Shown here: positions 4,914 through 20,673 of the stretch, piece after piece
Numbering within the stretch: position 1 is the first letter of the stretch
Layout of the letters: each line of letters begins with the position of its first letter
Source of the DNA: Desulfobacteraceae bacterium
GTDB taxonomy: Bacteria > Desulfobacterota > DSM-4660 > Desulfatiglandales > Desulfatiglandaceae
Assembly (NCBI GenBank): GCA_016783065.1
Contig: JADHXI010000012.1
Coordinates: 1-35,892 of the forward strand
Direction: 5' to 3'
DNA length: 35,892 nucleotides
Made by a program: the position numbers and the translations under genes
Notes under the pieces: model-generated
Told to the model about the DNA's origin: nothing
The model's input: only the letters and a program-made list of their open reading frames with translations
The model's database searches: none

Positions 4914-7900
4914 ATGAAAGCAGAGACGTCAAAAACGAATCAGGGTGCGGTTATGGTCGTTGGAGGCGGCATTGCAGGAATGCAGGCTGCCCTTGATCTT
5001 GCTGATTCCGGTTTTTATGTCCACCTGGTTGAAAAATCCCCCGCCATTGGCGGGGTGATGTCACAGTTGGACAAGACCTTTCCCACAAATGACTGCGCCA
5101 TGTGAATCATCTCTCCGAAACTGGTCGAGGTCGGCCGGCATATCAACATTGAGCTTCATACCTGCTCAACTGTCCAGGGAATCGAAGGAGAACAAGGAAA
5201 TTTTGAGGTAACACTCAACAAGGTCCCGCGCTATATTGATCCCGATGCCTGTACTGCCTGCGCGGACTGCGCAGAGGCATGCCCGGTGGTGCGTCCCAGC
5301 GAGTATGACGTAGGGCTGATCGGGCGTAAAGCCACCTATAAACCTTATGCTCAGGCCATCCCCGGCGGGTTTGCCATTGAGAAACTGGATACCGCCCCCT
5401 GTCGAATGGCGTGCCCGGCAAATCTGAATGTGCAGGGCTACGTTCAGATGGTCAAGCAGGAAAAATACCGGGAGGCGGTTCAGATCATCATGCAGGATCT
5501 CCCATTCCCCGGAGTCCTTGGCCGCATCTGCCCCCACCGCTGTGAGAAAAGTTGCCGTCGCCTTGAAGTGGATGAGGCGGTCTCCATAAGGGAACTCAAG
5601 CGGGTCGCTGCGGATCACGTGGACCTCATGGAAATCCCTGTGCCTGAAATAGTTCCCAAAGATGAAAAGGTGGCTGTTGTCGGTTCAGGCCCCGCAAGCC
5701 TGACCGCTGCCTATTTCCTGGCCCTTGACGGTTACCAGGTGGCTATCTATGAAGCCATGCCGGAACCGGGGGGAATGATGCGTTATGGCATACCCGAACA
5801 CCGGCTGCCACGGAACGTGCTGGACCATGAGATCGAAAATCTCAAGCGGCTGGGCATAGAGATCCATACCGGTACAGAGGTCGGTAAGGATGTTACCCTC
5901 GAAGAACTCAAAAAACATGGGGCCAGGGCCATATTTGTGGGTACCGGCGCCTGGCGGGGCCTCAAGCTCAGGATTAAGGGCGAAGAGGCAGATGGCGTTA
6001 AGGATGTCACCTCGTTCCTCAGGGATGCGCATCTTGGTAACCTGAAAAAGATAAGGGGTAAGGCGTTGATTATCGGAGGGGGCCATTCGGCACTGGATGG
6101 CGCAAGATTGGCACTCCGGATGGGTGCGGATCAGGCCCATATCATTTACCGGCGATCGCGAACAGAGATGCTCGCCGAGCCAGAAGAGATCGAAGAGGCC
6201 GAAAGGGAAGGCGTAAAGATCCATTTCCTGGTTGCTCCAATGAGGGTTGCCGTGGAAAATGGGGACGTCCAGGGCATCGAATGTATCCGGACCCGCCTGA
6301 CCGAGCCGGACACCACAGGGAGGCGAAAGCCGATCCCGGTGGAAGGATCGGAGTTTTTTATCGAGGCCGACCACATCATACCTGCCGTCGGACAGGAACC
6401 TGACCTCCTTTTCATGGGAGATAATAGCCCGTTGGAGGTTTCCAAATGGAACCTCCTGGTAGTAAACCCGGAGACCCTTCAGACCAATATACCGGGAATT
6501 TTTGCCGGCGGAGATGTGATCACCGGTCCTGCAACAGTGATCGAGGCGGTTGAGGCAGGAAAGCGGGCGGCAAGATATATGGCCATGTACTTAAAGGGGG
6601 AAGAACTGCCCACCGAATGGATAGAGGAACCCCCAATGGGGAACAACTGGGTAGAGGTCCCGGATGATGAACCCACGAAGCATCGACTGAGAATTTCCAC
6701 ACTCCCGGTTGAAAAAAGGCTTTCCGGGTTTGAAGAGGTGAACCTCCTTGCCGATGAGACATCCGCCAAGGAAGAGGCCGGCCGGTGTCTCAACTGCGGT
6801 AGCTGCTGTGAATGTTACCAGTGCGTGGAGGCCTGTAAGGCCAATGCGATTACTCTGGAGACCCACGGACAAAAAAGGGAAAGCGTTGTCCTTCAGGTGG
6901 GCGCGGTGATCATGTCGCCAGGGTTTGAACCCTTTGATCCCAACAAATACGATACCTATCGTTACGCGATTTACCCCAATGTTGTAACCAGCATGGAGTT
7001 TGAGCGGATCCTGAGTTCGACGGGTCCCTATCAGGGTCACCTGCAGCGCCCTTCAGATGAAAAGGAGCCCAAAAAGATCGCATGGCTCCAGTGCGTCGGG
7101 TCAAGAGATATCAATCGGTGTGATCATTCCTACTGCTCCTCTGTGTGCTGTATGTACGCCACCAAAGAGGCCGTGATAGCAAAGGAGCATGCCGTCCACG
7201 AGCTGGACACCGCCATCTTCTTCATGGACATGAGGACCTATGGAAAGGATTTCGAAAAATATTACAACCGGGCCAAAGATGAAATGGGGGTGCGTTATAT
7301 TCGATCCCGTATCCATTCCATCGACGGAGACCCGGAAACCGATGATGTCTGCCTGCAGTATGCCGATGAAAACGGCGTTGTCCGGTCGGAGACATTCGAC
7401 ATGGTGGTCCTTTCAGTAGGGCTGGAGACCCCCGAACGCCTGGTGCAACTGGCAGAAGGCCTGGGAATCGAACTGGATCAGGACAACTTCGTCCAGACAG
7501 GGAGCTTCTCACCTGTGGAGACGTCTCGAAAGGGCATTTATGTGTGCGGGGCCTTTCAGGAACCCAAGGATATCCCCTATTCTGTGATGGAAGCCAGCGC
7601 CGCTGCTTGCGGGGCAATGGCCAATCTCTCCGGGGTCCGGGGAACCCTGGTACAGGAGAAGCGGTATCCCGCGGAACGTGATGTATCTCTGGAAGATCCC
7701 CAAATCGGTGTCTTTGTCTGCAATTGCGGGACCAACATCGGCGGAATAGTGGATGTCCCAAAAGTTGCAGCGTATGCACGCTCACTTCCCGGCGTTGCCT
7801 ATGTGGGAGAAAACCTGTTCACCTGTTCACAGGATTCCCAGGACAGGATGAAAGAAATTATCTTACAGGAGAACCTCAACCGGGTCGTTGTTGCGGCCTG

Positions 7901-9467: not shown

Positions 9468-9887
9468 ATGTCTCAACAATTTAATCCAAAAATGATCGCG
9501 TTTGCATGCAACTGGTGTGCTTATTCTGCTGCGGATTTGGCGGGGGTCAGCCGTTTTCAGTATCCTCCCAATGTGCGAATTATCCGGGTTATGTGCTCCG
9601 GCAGAATAAACCCTAATTTTATTCTGAAGGCATTTGAAATGGGCGCAGACGGGGTGCTGGTGGCAGGGTGACACATTGGAGACTGTCATTACCAGGATGG
9701 TAATGTGAAAGCTGAGAAGATGTTCGACATGACCAGAGAACTGTCAACCCTGCTGGGCATGGAACCCTCACGCCTGCGTTTGGAATGGATCTCTTCATCT
9801 GAAGGCACCCGCTTTGCCGAGGTGGCCAGGGAATTTACCGAACAGCTCAGGACCCTGGGACCGTCTTCCTTTAAGGCCGCGGCTTGA
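9468..9887 (+). CDS. mvhD: MvhD-type [2Fe-2S] electron-transfer subunit, one selenocysteine
   Basis: Reading TGA at 9669-9671 as Sec68 gives 139 residues, the usual size for MvhD/FrhD-like delta subunits. The N-terminus has Cys14-x2-Cys17 in [15 protein letters not shown], Cys43 in VMCSGR, and the hallmark end of the domain with Sec at the normal Cys place (VAG-U-HIGDCHY). In methanogens MvhD passes electrons from hydrogenase to HdrA through a [2Fe-2S] cluster; here it should link the HdrA proteins to formate dehydrogenase or another donor (inference). The ATG at 9468 follows GGGAG by 6 nt. Stopping at the UGA would remove half the conserved domain and leave the downstream half without a start. 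It is a paralogue of the second MvhD at 13290. Confidence 0.92.
9687..9705 (+). promoter_or_regulatory. Bacterial SECIS hairpin for Sec68 of MvhD-1
   Basis: CATTACC (9687-9693) and GGTAATG (9699-9705) form a perfect 7-bp stem around loop AGGAT, which starts 22 nt after the UGA. The same place in the second MvhD gene holds a matching hairpin. Confidence 0.8.
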
Positions 9888-9980: not shown

Positions 9981-11513
9981 GTGAACAAAGACATCCTTGT
10001 CATAGGTGGAGGAATCGCAGGTATCCAGTCTTCCTTGGACCTTGCAGAGATGGGATACAAGGTCTACATGGTTGAACGACTTCCCAGTATTGGCGGGAAG
10101 ATGGCCCAACTGGATAAAACATTTCCCACCAACGACTGTGCCATCTGAATTCTTTCGCCCAAGATGCTGGATGTCGGTCGACATCCCAACATTGAGCTCA
10201 TGGCTTACAGCCAGGTGGAGAGGGTCGAAGGACAGTCGGGTGATTTCTCAGTAACGGTTCGAAGAAAGGCCCGGTACGTTGAGGAAGATAAGTGTACCGG
10301 ATGCGGGGCGTGTGCTGAGAAGTGCCCCACCAAGGTATCTGACACCTTCAATGAAGGACTGGGCACCCGCAGAGCCATATACAGCTATTTTGCTCAGGGC
10401 ATACCCTCTACCCATACTATTGATCCGGAATATTGCCGACAGTTAAATGGCAAGAAGTGCGGTGTCTGCAAAAAGACCTGTCAGGCCGATGCCATAAACT
10501 TTGATCAGGAAGACAGGGTGGTAGAACTTCAAGTTGGAGCCATTATCGCTGCAACGGGATACGAGGTGTTTGATCCTTCCTGCATTCCTGAATACCAATA
10601 CAAAGAAATCGCCAACGTCGTGACGGCCGTGGAATTTGAAAGACTTCTGAGCGCGAGTGGGCCGACCGGCGGGCATCTGGATCGACCCGCAGATCTGGCC
10701 ATTGAAGCGGAAATCGAGGCGCTGGAGAAAAAGGCCCAGAAATCGCAGCGGGTCCTCGATAAATTTGAAAAAAAATATGGCGAGGCTTCCCCCAAGTTCT
10801 ACGAGAAATATCAAAAGGATGAGTTTGAGGACGACGAAGACCTAAAAAAGTGGGCGGACAAATATGATGCCCATATGGGTATCGCCGGTCCTCTCGACTC
10901 CCTGAAAAAGAAGGCCGAGGGGTTTGGTGTTGCAAAGCGGCTGGCCTTTATACAATGTGTCGGATCCAGGGATTTCAGATTTTACCCTTTCTGTTCGAGC
11001 TATTGCTGTATGCATTCCATAAAGGAGGCCATTATCGCCCAGGAGCATGAGTCTGAAACCACTTCGACAATCTTTGGCATGGATATTCGAGCAGTGGGGA
11101 AAGGGTTTGAGGAATACAAGATCAGGGGTGGCAACCAGTCTGGAATCACTTATGTTCGTGGACGGGTAGCGGAGATAACCCAAGGCCCCGATGACAATCC
11201 TGTGGTCTGGTATGAAGACACCTGCCAGAGGAGAGTCAGGAACCAGGAATTTGACATGGTGATTTTGGCCACTGCCTGTGCACCCAGCAATGGCATAAAA
11301 GAATTGGCCCAGGTCCTGGGGATTGAAATCAACGAGTTTGGATTTCTAAAGACCGATCCGTCGCAGCCTCTGGACACCACCAGGGCCGGCATTTTCACCT
11401 GCGGCTGTGCCTACGGACCCATGGATATCCCCGAATCGATTGTCCAGGCCAGCGGAGCAGCGGCCCGGGCTGCCCAGATTTTATCCGATTTTCAAATGCG
11501 CAAGGCATCGTAA
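9981..11513 (+). CDS. hdrA: HdrA, selenocysteine form, with an extra charged insertion
   Basis: The start chosen is GTG at 9981, with AGGAG 7 nt upstream and the product beginning [14 protein letters not shown] as HdrA proteins do. TGA at 10146-10148 is Sec56 in PTNDCAI-U-ILSPK, giving 510 residues. FAD-binding GGGIAG lies at 9-14, ferredoxin cysteines at 105/108/111/115 and 152/160/163/167, and the HdrA cluster motif QCVGSRD...FCSSYCC at 326-343. Between LDRP and [14 protein letters not shown] there is an unusual charged, Lys/Glu-rich, probably helical insertion (about residues 237-316) that HdrA normally lacks. HdrA carries the bifurcating FAD. It lies 14 nt upstream of a second HdrA-type gene with which it likely acts as a pair, mirroring the two halves of the fused protein upstream. 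Confidence 0.92.
10169..10186 (+). promoter_or_regulatory. Bacterial SECIS hairpin for Sec56 of HdrA
   Basis: GGATGTC (10169-10175) and GACATCC (10180-10186) form a perfect 7-bp stem with loop GGTC, which starts 27 nt after the UGA, within the range accepted for bacterial SECIS. Confidence 0.75.
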
Positions 11514-14641: not shown

Positions 14642-16678
14642 ATGGATTACCGAACTGCACTGACCACATGCACTTACTGCGGCTGTGGCTGCAATTTCTA
14701 TCTGGAAGTGCTGGACGGCCAGATTATTGATACGATCCCATGCAAGACCAGCCCCGTAAACGAGGGCAAGCTGTGTGTTAAGGGATGGAACGTCCACGAG
14801 TTTGTCCAGAGCCCCAATCGTCTGACCCGACCGCTCCTTCGCAAAAACGGTGCATTTGAGGAGGCCTCCTGGGATGAGGCATTGGACTTTACGGCCTCTA
14901 AACTCAGAGAAATCAAGGACAACTGTGGTGGCAATAGCGTCGGCTTCCTTAGCTCCGCCAAGGCAACCAACGAAGAAAATTACCTGTTTCAAAAATTGGC
15001 TCGAGCAGCCTTGGGCACCAACAATATTGATCACTGTGCCCGCCTCTGACACTCCTCCACGGTGGCAGGTCTTGCCGCCGCCTTTGGAAGTGGGGCCATG
15101 ACCAATTCGGTTGCGGAACTTGAAAACTCGGCGTGCATCTTTGTTATAGGCTCCAACACAACGTCCTCTCATCCCCTGGTGGCCACGCGAATTTTCAGGG
15201 CCAAACAAAAAGGGGCCAAATTGATCGTGGCGGACCCGCGCAAGATCCAGCTCGCCCTGATGGCGGATACCTATGTGCGACAAAACCTGGGGACCGATGT
15301 GGCCCTTATCAACGGTATTATGCACGTGATCCTGGACCGCGGGTGGCAGGATCAGGGTTTTATTGAAGAACGCACCGAGGGCTTCGAGACGGTGAAGGAG
15401 AAGGTTCGGTCATACACCCCGGAAAAGGTCTCAGGGATTACAGGCATCCCGGAGGAAGACATCGTCAAGATTGCCGAGGATTTCGGAACCGCCCAGACCG
15501 CCTCAATTGTCTACTGTATGGGAATTACCCAGCATGTCACCGGGGTAGACAATGTTAAATCACTGGCTAATCTGGCCATGCTGACAGGGAACGTTGGAAA
15601 GGAATCCACCGGGGTCAACCCCCTGAGAGGCCAGAACAATGTACAGGGTGCGTGCGATATGGGAGGGTTGCCCAATGTCTATCCCGGTTATCAGGCCGTC
15701 AACATGCTGGACAACCAGAAAAAATTTGAGTCAATCTGGGGAACCGACCTCTCCGATCAAGTTGGGCGTACGGTGTCGGATATGCTGGGAGGACTTTCGG
15801 ATGGGTCGCTGAAGGCCCTTTATGTTATGGGAGAAAACCCCATGTTAAGCGATCCTGATACCGCCCATGTGGAAAAGGCCCTCAAGGCCGCAGAGCTGCT
15901 TGTGGTTCAGGACATCTTTTTTACCCCAACCGCAGAACTGGCTCATGTGGTGCTGCCTGGCAGCTCCTTTGCCGAAAAGGATGGGACCTTCACAAATACA
16001 GAGAGACGGGTCATGAGGGTGAGAAAGGCGATTGAACCGGTGGGGGATTCGCGTCCGGACTGGCAGATCATTCAGGAGATTTCCAATCGTTTGGGTTATT
16101 CCATGGACTATGACTCGCCCGAGGCCATCCTGAAGGAAATTGCCGAGGTGACGCCCTCTTACAGCGGCATCACCTATGAGCGTCTGGAGGGGGAGGGACT
16201 CCAGTGGCCTTGTCCGGATGAGGGGCATCCAGGGACCAAGTTTCTTCACAAGGACGCCTTTGCCCGGGGCAAGGGCCTGTTTCATGCCATAGACTTCAAG
16301 CCTCCTGCAGAGAGCGTAGATGCAAACTATCCATTCTGGCTCACCACGGGCCGTATCCATGTGCATTACCACACAGGCACCATGACCCGAAATTCCCCGA
16401 CCCTCCATTCGGAGGTCCCGGAGGGCTCTCTGGAAATAAATCCGGGCGATGCCGGCCAACTGGGGATCAGGGAGGGTGATGAGGTAGAGGTTTCATCAAG
16501 GCGCGGCAAGATCAGAACGAAGACCGTTTTGACCGAAAGGGTGAAAGAGGGCCTTGTGTTCATGCCTTTCCATTTTGTTGAAAGCAATGCCAACGCCCTG
16601 ACAAATCCGGCCCTTGATCCCATTGCCAAGATACCCGAGTTAAAGGTCTGCGCCGTAAGGGTGGAAAAAGCTGCATAA
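14642..16678 (+). CDS. fdhA: Formate dehydrogenase catalytic subunit, selenocysteine form
   Basis: Reading TGA at 15047-15049 as Sec136 gives 678 residues. Cys10-x2-Cys13-x3-Cys17...Cys45 binds the [4Fe-4S] cluster. The active site reads HCARL-U-HSSTVAGL, where Sec136 coordinates Mo or W and the next His takes part in catalysis. The rest is a molybdopterin oxidoreductase domain (GSNTTSSHP, MGITQHVTGVDN, RGQNNVQGACDMG) and a C-terminal dinucleotide-binding domain (LTTGRIHVHYHTGTMTR). The protein has no Tat signal, so it is cytoplasmic, like other HdrA/MvhD-linked enzymes. AAGGAGGA lies about 11 nt before the ATG. It oxidises formate or reduces CO2 and is the substrate-level partner of the cluster. 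Confidence 0.95.
15060..15080 (+). promoter_or_regulatory. Bacterial SECIS hairpin for Sec136 of FdhA
   Basis: An 8-bp stem (15060-15067 with 15073-15080, one U-G pair) closes the loop GGTCT, which starts 18 nt after the UGA. The loop matches the AGGUCU loop of the E. coli fdhF SECIS. Confidence 0.85.
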
Positions 16679-17391: not shown

Positions 17392-17931
17392 ATGGTGATG
17401 ATTGTTGATCTGAGATCCGTTTTACATGCCCCTCGCCACTTTAATTTTACCCTTGAAGGGGATTGGTGGCAGGGCAATGGAGAGGATGATCAGGTCCTGG
17501 GGCTTGATGGTCCCGTGGAGGCCACCTTAAGTATCTCCAAGGCTGGCGCGGAGTATGTGCTTGAGGGGCGTTTGAGCGGCACGATTCGCCTTAGATGCGA
17601 CCGGTGTCTTGAGCCTTACCCCCGCGATTTAAAATGTGATTTCAGACTGTGCCAAACCTCAGGTCCCTCCGAAAGCGAGCCAAGTGAAGTCGAACTGTCG
17701 GAGGAGGATCTCGCTGTTGATTTTGTCACAGAGGAGCAGATCGACCTGGATGGGATTTTTAGGGAACAGATCTATTTGTCGCTGCCCATGAAATCGCTTT
17801 GCCGGGAGGATTGCCTTGGTCTATGCCCTGTTTGTGGAGCAGACCTAAATAAGGTAAAATGCGAGTGCCAACCAGAAAAAGGACATCCCGGTTTTTCAAA
17901 ACTCCGGGACCTGAGATTCAAAGGAGTGTGA
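17392..17931 (+). CDS. yceD: YceD/DUF177 family protein
   Basis: This 179-residue protein lies directly upstream of rpmF, as YceD does in most bacteria. The LRCDRCLEPYPRDL segment and the C-terminal LCREDCLGLCPVCGADLNKVKC motif are typical. YceD proteins are linked to ribosome or rRNA biogenesis in bacteria and plastids; the mechanism is not settled. The Cys pairs may bind zinc. The ORF begins ATGGTGATG, so starts at codons 1, 2 or 3 are possible; no clear Shine-Dalgarno separates them. Confidence 0.88.
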   Translation: MVMIVDLRSVLHAPRHFNFTLEGDWWQGNGEDDQVLGLDGPVEATLSISKAGAEYVLEGRLSGTIRLRCDRCLEPYPRDLKCDFRLCQTSGPSESEPSEVELSEEDLAVDFVTEEQIDLDGIFREQIYLSLPMKSLCREDCLGLCPVCGADLNKVKCECQPEKGHPGFSKLRDLRFKGV

Positions 17932-18124: not shown

Positions 18125-18225
18125 AGGAAGATCGCCGTGGATGCCACATGGGGGATTGTGCTCCAAAAACGGTTGTTCAGGGCGCGGTTGAAACTGTTTT
18201 GGTTGCGGCCGAAGGCGTTCATTAG
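18125..18225 (+). pseudogene. plsX: Remnant of the plsX N-terminus, frameshifted
   Basis: The gap between rpmF and fabG still encodes the start of PlsX, but in two frames. 18128-18145 reads KIAVDA; after two extra bases (AC, 18146-18147) the reading continues from ATG 18148 as MGDCAPKTVVQGAVETVLV and AAEGVH before TAG at 18223-18225. Together this resembles the PlsX N-terminus (KIAVDAMGGD-x-AP-x3-V-x-GAV). The start ATG, one Gly of MGGD, and everything after about residue 30 are missing. The usual fabH and fabD are missing too, and fabG follows with its own AGGAAG ribosome site. This is best read as an internal deletion with a surviving stub. A very short peptide from 18148 is possible but unlikely to matter. 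Confidence 0.75.
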
Positions 18226-18234
18226 GAAGACAAC

Positions 18235-18984
18235 ATGAGCGACGAGAATTCCAGGGTGGTGGTTATTACTGGGGGATCAAAGGGCATCGGTCGTGCTGTG
18301 GCCTTGCAATTCGGAGGGGAAGGGGCAAAAATCATTATTGTCCATTATGATCCGGATGAATCTGCCGCACAGGAAACACTGAATGTCTTGGCTGAAATGG
18401 ATGTGGAGGGAGAGAGCCACAGGATTGACGTATCTTCCTTTGAGGCTGTGGAGGCGTTATTCAAGGAAACAATCTCCAGATTTGGGAGGATCGACGTCCT
18501 GGTCAATAACGCAGGCATAACCAGAGATACCCTTTTACTGAGAATGGGTGAGGATGCCTGGGACAGTGTCATACGGGTTAACCTGAAGAGTGTTTTTAAC
18601 TGCACCCAGGCCGTCATAAGATCGATGGTAAAGCAACGCGGGGGGCGTATCGTAAATATCTCTTCGGTGGTGGGCGTGATAGGGAATCCCGGCCAGTCCA
18701 ACTACGCTGCGTCCAAGGCGGGGATTATTGGTTTTAGTAAGAGTATTGCCAGGGAGGTGGCCGGAAGAGGGGTAACCGTCAATGTAGTTGCGCCCGGGTT
18801 TGTGGAGACAGACATGACGGCGGTGCTCTCCGAAAAGGTGAAGGAGGCTTTCCTGCAGCAGATACCACTGGGCAGGGCCGGCAAACCGGAAGATATTGCT
18901 GAAGCGGTCTATTGGCTCTGCTCCGAAGGAGCGAGCTATATTACCGGCCAAATCATCCATGTAAATGGAGGGATGTATATGTAG
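18235..18984 (+). CDS. fabG: 3-oxoacyl-ACP reductase
   Basis: A classical short-chain dehydrogenase of 249 residues with cofactor motif GGSKGIG (13-19), NNAG (91-94) and the catalytic set Ser143/Ser144, Tyr157 and Lys161 in SNYAASK. It reduces 3-oxoacyl-ACP with NADPH in fatty acid elongation. Placement before acpP and fabF supports FabG over other SDRs. AGGAAG is 5 nt upstream of the ATG. It directly follows the plsX remnant. Confidence 0.95.
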   Translation: MSDENSRVVVITGGSKGIGRAVALQFGGEGAKIIIVHYDPDESAAQETLNVLAEMDVEGESHRIDVSSFEAVEALFKETISRFGRIDVLVNNAGITRDTLLLRMGEDAWDSVIRVNLKSVFNCTQAVIRSMVKQRGGRIVNISSVVGVIGNPGQSNYAASKAGIIGFSKSIAREVAGRGVTVNVVAPGFVETDMTAVLSEKVKEAFLQQIPLGRAGKPEDIAEAVYWLCSEGASYITGQIIHVNGGMYM

Positions 18985-19148: not shown

Positions 19149-19388
<240 letters not shown>

Positions 19389-19431: not shown

Positions 19432-20673
19432 ATGACCAGGAGGGTTGTGGTTACAGGCCTTGGGATGGCCACGCCTTTGGGCACCGGTGTAGAGAAAAAT
19501 TGGGAAGCCGCGTGTGCCGGTAAGTCAGGTATTGGACCCATTACAAAATTTGACTCATCCTCTTTTTCGGCCAGAATTGCCGGGGAGGTTAGCGATTTCA
19601 GATCCGAAGATTTTGTGGACAAGCAGCAGATTCGCCGGTTCGATATATTTATTCACTATGCTGTGGCCTCAGCCAGGATGGCTATGGAGGATTCAGGTCT
19701 GAAGATCACGCCTTCCAACGCCCACCGGGTGGGGAGCATAACCGGCTCGGGTCTCGGTGGGTTGGCCATGCTACTTCACAACCACAAAGTCCTTCTGGAA
19801 AAAGGGCCTCGTCGCATCAGCCCTTTCTTTATACCCGGTATTATTGCCAATATGGCCCCCGGCCAGATCGCTATTGAATTTGGGGCAAAAGGACCAAATA
19901 TATCCATTGAAACAGCCTGCGCTGCCAGCTGCCATGCAGTGGGGGAGGCATTCCGGATGATCAGGGAAGGTATTTCGGATGCCATTATCGCAGGGGGGGC
20001 AGAAGCAGTGGTGAATCCACTTTCCCTTGGCGGGTTTTGTTCCATGCGGGCCCTTTCCACCAGGAATGACGAACCCGAGAAGGCTTCACGCCCCTTTGAC
20101 CTGGACCGCGACGGTTTTGTGATGGGGGAGGGTGCGGGCATGCTCATTCTGGAAGAACTCGATCAGGCCCTTGAAAGGGGAACCAATATCTATGCGGAGG
20201 TGGTGGGCTATGGTTTGAGCGGGGATGCCTATCATGTATCTGCTCCGGATCCCGAAGGCGAAGGGGCCATTAACTGCATGAAGATGGCAATCGACTATGC
20301 GGGTCTGCGGCCTGATCAGATTGATTATATCAATGCCCATGGCACCTCTACCAAACTGAATGACCTGTCGGAAAACAAGGCTATAAAAGCCGTATTTGGA
20401 GAGCATGCCTACAAACTTGCCATTAGCTCCACCAAATCCATGACCGGACATCTCCTCGGGGGTGCGGGGGGAGTAGAAGCTATTTTTGCGGCACTCACAA
20501 TCAAACGTGGGATCATTCCTCCCACCATCAATTATGAGACCCTTGATCCTGAATGTGATCTGGACTATGTCCCCAATGTGGCGAGGCAGGCTAAGGTGGA
20601 AACCGCTATGTCGAATTCCTTTGGCTTTGGCGGAACAAACGCCTGTCTGATCTTAAAGGCCTTTGAGGCATAA
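19432..20673 (+). CDS. fabF: 3-oxoacyl-ACP synthase II
   Basis: The 413-residue condensing enzyme has the Cys-His-His triad: Cys163 in ETACAASCH, His303 in NAHGTSTKLND and His340 in KSMTGHLLGGAGG, with the C-terminal SNSFGFGGTN loop. It elongates acyl-ACP with malonyl-ACP. AGGAG lies 8 nt before the ATG, 43 nt after acpP. As no fabH is left at this locus, initiation of fatty acid synthesis must rely on a gene elsewhere. Confidence 0.97.
   Translation: MTRRVVVTGLGMATPLGTGVEKNWEAACAGKSGIGPITKFDSSSFSARIAGEVSDFRSEDFVDKQQIRRFDIFIHYAVASARMAMEDSGLKITPSNAHRVGSITGSGLGGLAMLLHNHKVLLEKGPRRISPFFIPGIIANMAPGQIAIEFGAKGPNISIETACAASCHAVGEAFRMIREGISDAIIAGGAEAVVNPLSLGGFCSMRALSTRNDEPEKASRPFDLDRDGFVMGEGAGMLILEELDQALERGTNIYAEVVGYGLSGDAYHVSAPDPEGEGAINCMKMAIDYAGLRPDQIDYINAHGTSTKLNDLSENKAIKAVFGEHAYKLAISSTKSMTGHLLGGAGGVEAIFAALTIKRGIIPPTINYETLDPECDLDYVPNVARQAKVETAMSNSFGFGGTNACLILKAFEA

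Follow-up and report, generated by a model that had tools for sequence, protein, structure and literature searches.

A plsX pseudogene between rpmF and fabG, and recurrent plsX loss probably tolerated through PlsB

Results

The window, the whole stretch of 35,892 nucleotides analysed here, carries between rpmF and fabG a true plsX pseudogene scar, which lies in the syntenic position, is disabled and has no intact copy in the assembly (Table 1). We consider it likely (probability about 0.8) that plsX eroded in place and that this was tolerated because PlsB makes the PlsX/PlsY route redundant, the gene having been lost repeatedly among relatives.

Table 1. Features of the yceD–fabF locus in the window.
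Feature	Position	Strand	Evidence and remarks
yceD	17392..17931	+	PF02620, E 1.2e-30; upstream locus marker, in the same place in relatives
rpmF, ribosomal protein L32	17941..18123	+	PF01783, E 1.4e-25
plsX pseudogene remnant	18125..18222	+	blastn against relatives' intact plsX; shuffle and window-tile controls
fabG, 3-oxoacyl-ACP reductase, intact	18235..18984	+	PF13561, E 8.6e-68; PF00106, E 6.4e-62
acpP, acyl carrier protein	19149..19388	+	PF00550, E 1.9e-16
fabF, 3-oxoacyl-ACP synthase II	19432..20673	+	PF00109/PF02801

The window's genome, G000, is a draft metagenome-assembled genome (MAG) of 3.69 Mb in 208 contigs, 71.75% complete; we compared it with two congeners, G001 and G002 (completeness 72, 83 and 69% for G000, G001 and G002, respectively), and with further relatives. 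Its rpmF–fabG spacer of approximately 111–114 bp holds an N-terminal remnant of plsX, truncated, frameshifted and stripped of its start codon, in which some 30 of about 335 codons are left; fabG follows directly on the 3′ side, a synteny shared with relatives. The remnant matched the start of relatives' intact plsX at 75–78% identity over 64–81 bp (blastn, best E 3e-10) and lies at the same distance from rpmF as the intact genes do. The controls were far weaker, with the best of 1000 dinucleotide shuffles reaching only 3e-4 and no window tile outside the plsX locus doing better than 0.003. Homology to PlsX was clear over positions 18125–18199 or so (approximately 26 codons) and had gone by 18222. 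The codon at the start position is AGG, where relatives have ATG and G002 has GTG, and past codon 6 the remnant is one base short overall. Translated in two frames, it yields first RKIAVDA and next MGDCAPKTVVQGAVETVLVAAEGVH, ending at a stop codon. When the window was searched with a PlsX protein profile, the remnant gave only a weak match (E 0.08), because the frameshift splits it, and the DNA comparison is decisive. No PlsX match was found when the whole G000 assembly (3.69 Mb, 72% complete) was searched with PF02504, nor was PlsX found in the G001 and G002 assemblies. Thus, the earlier note was right to see in this spacer a frameshifted stub of plsX, whose likeness to PlsX the alignment confirms, and to regard plsX itself as gone.

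The same note had proposed that a whole plsX–fabH–fabD segment was deleted, and this was not borne out. That segment belongs to the E. coli-type cluster, which runs plsX–fabH–fabD–fabG–acpP–fabF, and is absent from the window's order, where the genes run yceD–rpmF–plsX–fabG–acpP–fabF, with rpiB, glyA, a deaminase gene and nrdR as the usual downstream neighbours. The two arrangements share rpmF upstream and fabG–acpP–fabF downstream, but in the window's order fabH and fabD lie outside the cluster and the rpmF–fabG gap once held plsX only. In genomes with intact plsX and a junction readable on one contig, the distance from rpmF to fabG was 956–1480 bp, space for plsX and little more. In relatives whose locus was read, fabH and fabD were on contigs other than that of plsX (in G005, for example, plsX is on C1, fabH on C3 and fabD on C5). 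As this gap is filled by plsX only, plsX alone was lost, and we rejected a joint loss of fabH and fabD. FabD (TIGR00128) gave no match in G000, G001 or G002, all three of which are incomplete, and most relatives searched have one.

The three congeners carry different scars at this junction, with rpmF–fabG gaps of 114 bp (G000), 343 bp (G001) and 335 bp (G002). The G001 scar consists of pieces matching PlsX profile positions 1–16, 39–70 and 310–325 in different frames, and that of G002 matches positions 2–23; judged by their sequences, the three have the look of one pseudogene eroding separately in three species. They bear directly on whether the organism's own plsX was merely collapsed out of the contig during assembly or binning, which we regard as very unlikely. 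The fragmented, incomplete state of G000 would suit such an artefact, as would contig breaks in or beside plsX in G003, G018 and G025, but a collapse would give neither a mutated start codon nor a frameshift, and three congeneric assemblies with three different scars make it improbable. Moreover, the missing part of plsX has no fragment elsewhere in G000, and a further 12 genomes have short or partial junctions of various lengths. The assembly collapse that the earlier note had allowed for is thus made unlikely by the junctions of close relatives. Beside the plsX scars, yceD is frameshifted in G001 (L061 1635-2163) and internally shortened in G036 (L076 2694-2947).

In those 12 further relatives, rpmF adjoins fabG with plsX absent or reduced to a fragment. 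No plsX was recognisable at the junction in G008, G019, G029, G037, G041, G044, G051 and G053, whose gaps span 5–270 bp, the 5-bp spacer being that of G041. Three members of one genus (G048, G054 and G060) share a common internal deletion that leaves approximately 37–40 N-terminal and 40–59 C-terminal codons in gaps of 295–296 bp, and the fourth member, G061, has plsX intact on one contig. G036 retains codons 1–178 in a gap of 587 bp. This tally of in-place losses leaves out G018 and G025, which had no plsX match but have contig breaks near the junction, and it does not cover G063, G067 or G068; G003 was rejected as a loss, its plsX being merely split over two contigs. On a tree of the neighbouring YceD, RpmF and FabG from 50 genomes (G036 had too little sequence to be placed), plsX presence required 9 changes, 8–10 over bootstraps, at least four of them forced by well supported branches. 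With about nine changes on the tree, the loss of plsX is recurrent. G048 also has a second plsX, divergent and full-length, on another contig (L248 2495-3490, G048:C3), adjoining polyprenyl synthase-like and PF01553 acyltransferase genes; this copy is possibly a binning contaminant.

PlsX normally helps to start membrane-lipid synthesis by converting acyl-ACP to acyl-phosphate, from which PlsY makes lysophosphatidate. PlsB is a one-step glycerol-3-phosphate acyltransferase that takes acyl-ACP or acyl-CoA directly. We propose that plsX decayed within the yceD–rpmF–plsX–fabG–acpP–fabF row with fabG left undisturbed, in an order where PlsB would offer another way to carry out the first step, the acylation of glycerol-3-phosphate. 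Because PlsB uses acyl-ACP or acyl-CoA directly, the PlsX/PlsY route would have become redundant and would then have disappeared time and again. The window's genus has seemingly lost both PlsX and PlsY and would be left with PlsB; judging from gene content, this enzyme probably carries the flux, and a putative PlsC-type enzyme, presumably present, would perform the second acylation.

Judged by the GPAT_C domain, 50 of 61 genomes have PlsB, as do 46 of the 48 relatives that were at least 90% complete. Among these 48, PlsX was absent from 10 and PlsY from 14, and all ten genomes without PlsX carry PlsB. Such agreement is expected by chance because PlsB is so common (approximately 0.4 exceptions would be expected among the 48), so it is consistent with redundancy and does not prove it. 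PlsY was kept despite the lack of PlsX in G008, G019, G037 and G060; G051, G053 and G068 have neither PlsX nor PlsY, with PlsB present. Absence of PlsX or PlsY from any single genome is weak evidence, since almost all are draft MAGs. PlsX was kept with no PlsY match in many relatives (G015, G020, G030, G049, G057, G059, G038 and G043); of these, G015 (97% complete) has no PlsB match either and is left with no known glycerol-3-phosphate acyltransferase.

PlsB is full-length in both congeners, whose copies share 83% identity, carry acyltransferase and GPAT_C domains and resemble solved GPATs. Four acyltransferase motifs are conserved in PlsB across the window's order, and in G001 they read HKSHVD, GAFFIRR and EGGRSRSGK, plus a fourth block with a proline. 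The HX4D motif of the G002 PlsB (L246 2949-5615, G002:C168) has alanine where aspartate is expected (HKSHIAY), perhaps through a mistake in sequencing or assembly. PlsB proteins of the order score 427–470 bits, below the NCBIfam PlsB equivalog cut-off of 610. No PlsB match was found in G000 (72% complete), where the DUF151-like gene that neighbours plsB in both congeners is also missing; this fits an assembly gap, and the G000 PlsB likely sits in the unassembled part. PlsY was found in none of G000, G001 and G002 (72, 83 and 69% complete). The earlier note had offered two ways of living without these genes, namely that their functions reside elsewhere or that lipid synthesis is started differently; of these, the latter is favoured, with PlsB in both congeners and nearly all relatives.

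Two other readings accept the scar and explain it differently. In the first, acyl-phosphate would come from a relocated or unrelated enzyme, such as a phosphotransacylase or fatty acid kinase, in place of PlsX, and PlsX/PlsY chemistry would continue; this would account for the four relatives that retain PlsY without PlsX, PlsY can take acyl-phosphate made by the fatty acid kinase FakAB (PMC13400652), and the divergent plsX of G048 could be such a relocated copy. That copy may itself be contamination, however, and nothing known would consume acyl-phosphate in the window's genus, none of whose three genomes yielded PlsY, so we think replacement unlikely. It is scarcely credible that the remnant persists because it regulates fabG, whether as a leader or as a small ORF. 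From its position it is probably co-transcribed with fabG and holds the fabG ribosome-binding region, but its sequence, length and reading frames differ among the three congeners, hardly any spacer is left in other relatives (5 bp in G041), and the window has no Rfam match. Redundancy of the PlsX/PlsY route beside PlsB remains our preferred explanation.

Elsewhere in the window, in-frame TGA codons occur in two HdrA-like genes (5103-5105, NDCAM-U-IISPK; 10146-10148, NDCAI-U-ILSPK), an MvhD-like gene (9669-9671, GVLVAG-U-HIGDCHY) and a formate dehydrogenase-like gene (15047-15049, HCARL-U-HSSTV). All four look like selenocysteine sites, and the genes are probably a selenoprotein cluster; an Rfam scan of the window returned no element at gathering score. 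Among named genomes, the window's FabF had only distant relatives (at best 61–63% identity), and its best matches included MAGs of Deltaproteobacteria and Desulfobulbaceae alongside Nitrospirota. Together with the HdrA-, MvhD- and formate dehydrogenase-like genes, these matches make a Desulfobacterota-like bacterium likely.

Discussion

A single plsX scar is ordinary, and the patchy dismantling of PlsX and PlsY outside Gammaproteobacteria is moderately interesting. Whether the pattern extends to the whole order is evenly balanced in our judgement: PlsX and PlsY would each be separately dispensable and plsX lost many times, leaving some members with PlsY but no PlsX, some with PlsX but no PlsY and several, including the window's genus, with PlsB alone. 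In the literature we searched on PlsX and PlsB in Deltaproteobacteria, sulfate-reducing bacteria and Desulfobacterota, which took in few subscription papers, this pattern was unreported. In a second, unrelated group that loses the route repeatedly, these genomes would mirror in nature the plsX, plsY and plsXY mutants of E. coli, and could reveal which changes are needed before PlsX becomes dispensable, such as in PlsB level or regulation or in acyl-ACP control.

As in the E. coli mutants, the lineage that loses plsX here is Gram-negative and has PlsB. E. coli tolerates the loss of plsX or plsY singly, PlsB being essential and the main route, but dies when both are missing unless it has more PlsB or glycerol-3-phosphate (PMC1950310, PMC11633183). 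The PlsB-alone state is thus synthetically lethal in E. coli (PMC1950310, PMC11633183), whereas the window's genus and G051, G053 and G068 appear to be naturally without both enzymes.

PlsX and PlsY are nearly universal in bacteria (PMC11633183, PMC13400652); PlsY is described as ubiquitous except in Xanthomonadales (PMC13400652), the only bacteria known to have PlsB/PlsC alone (PMC11633183). The window's genus resembles Xanthomonadales in the apparent absence of both PlsX and PlsY and in the PlsB found in two congeners. Xanthomonadales, however, are Gammaproteobacteria and the window's group is a deltaproteobacterial-like order, in which PlsB is related to, but divergent from, the gammaproteobacterial enzyme and PlsB-only synthesis is predicted from gene content. 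The order also differs in showing recurrent, patchy loss with visible plsX scars, and looks like a new, repeated example, outside Xanthomonadales, of doing without PlsX and PlsY.
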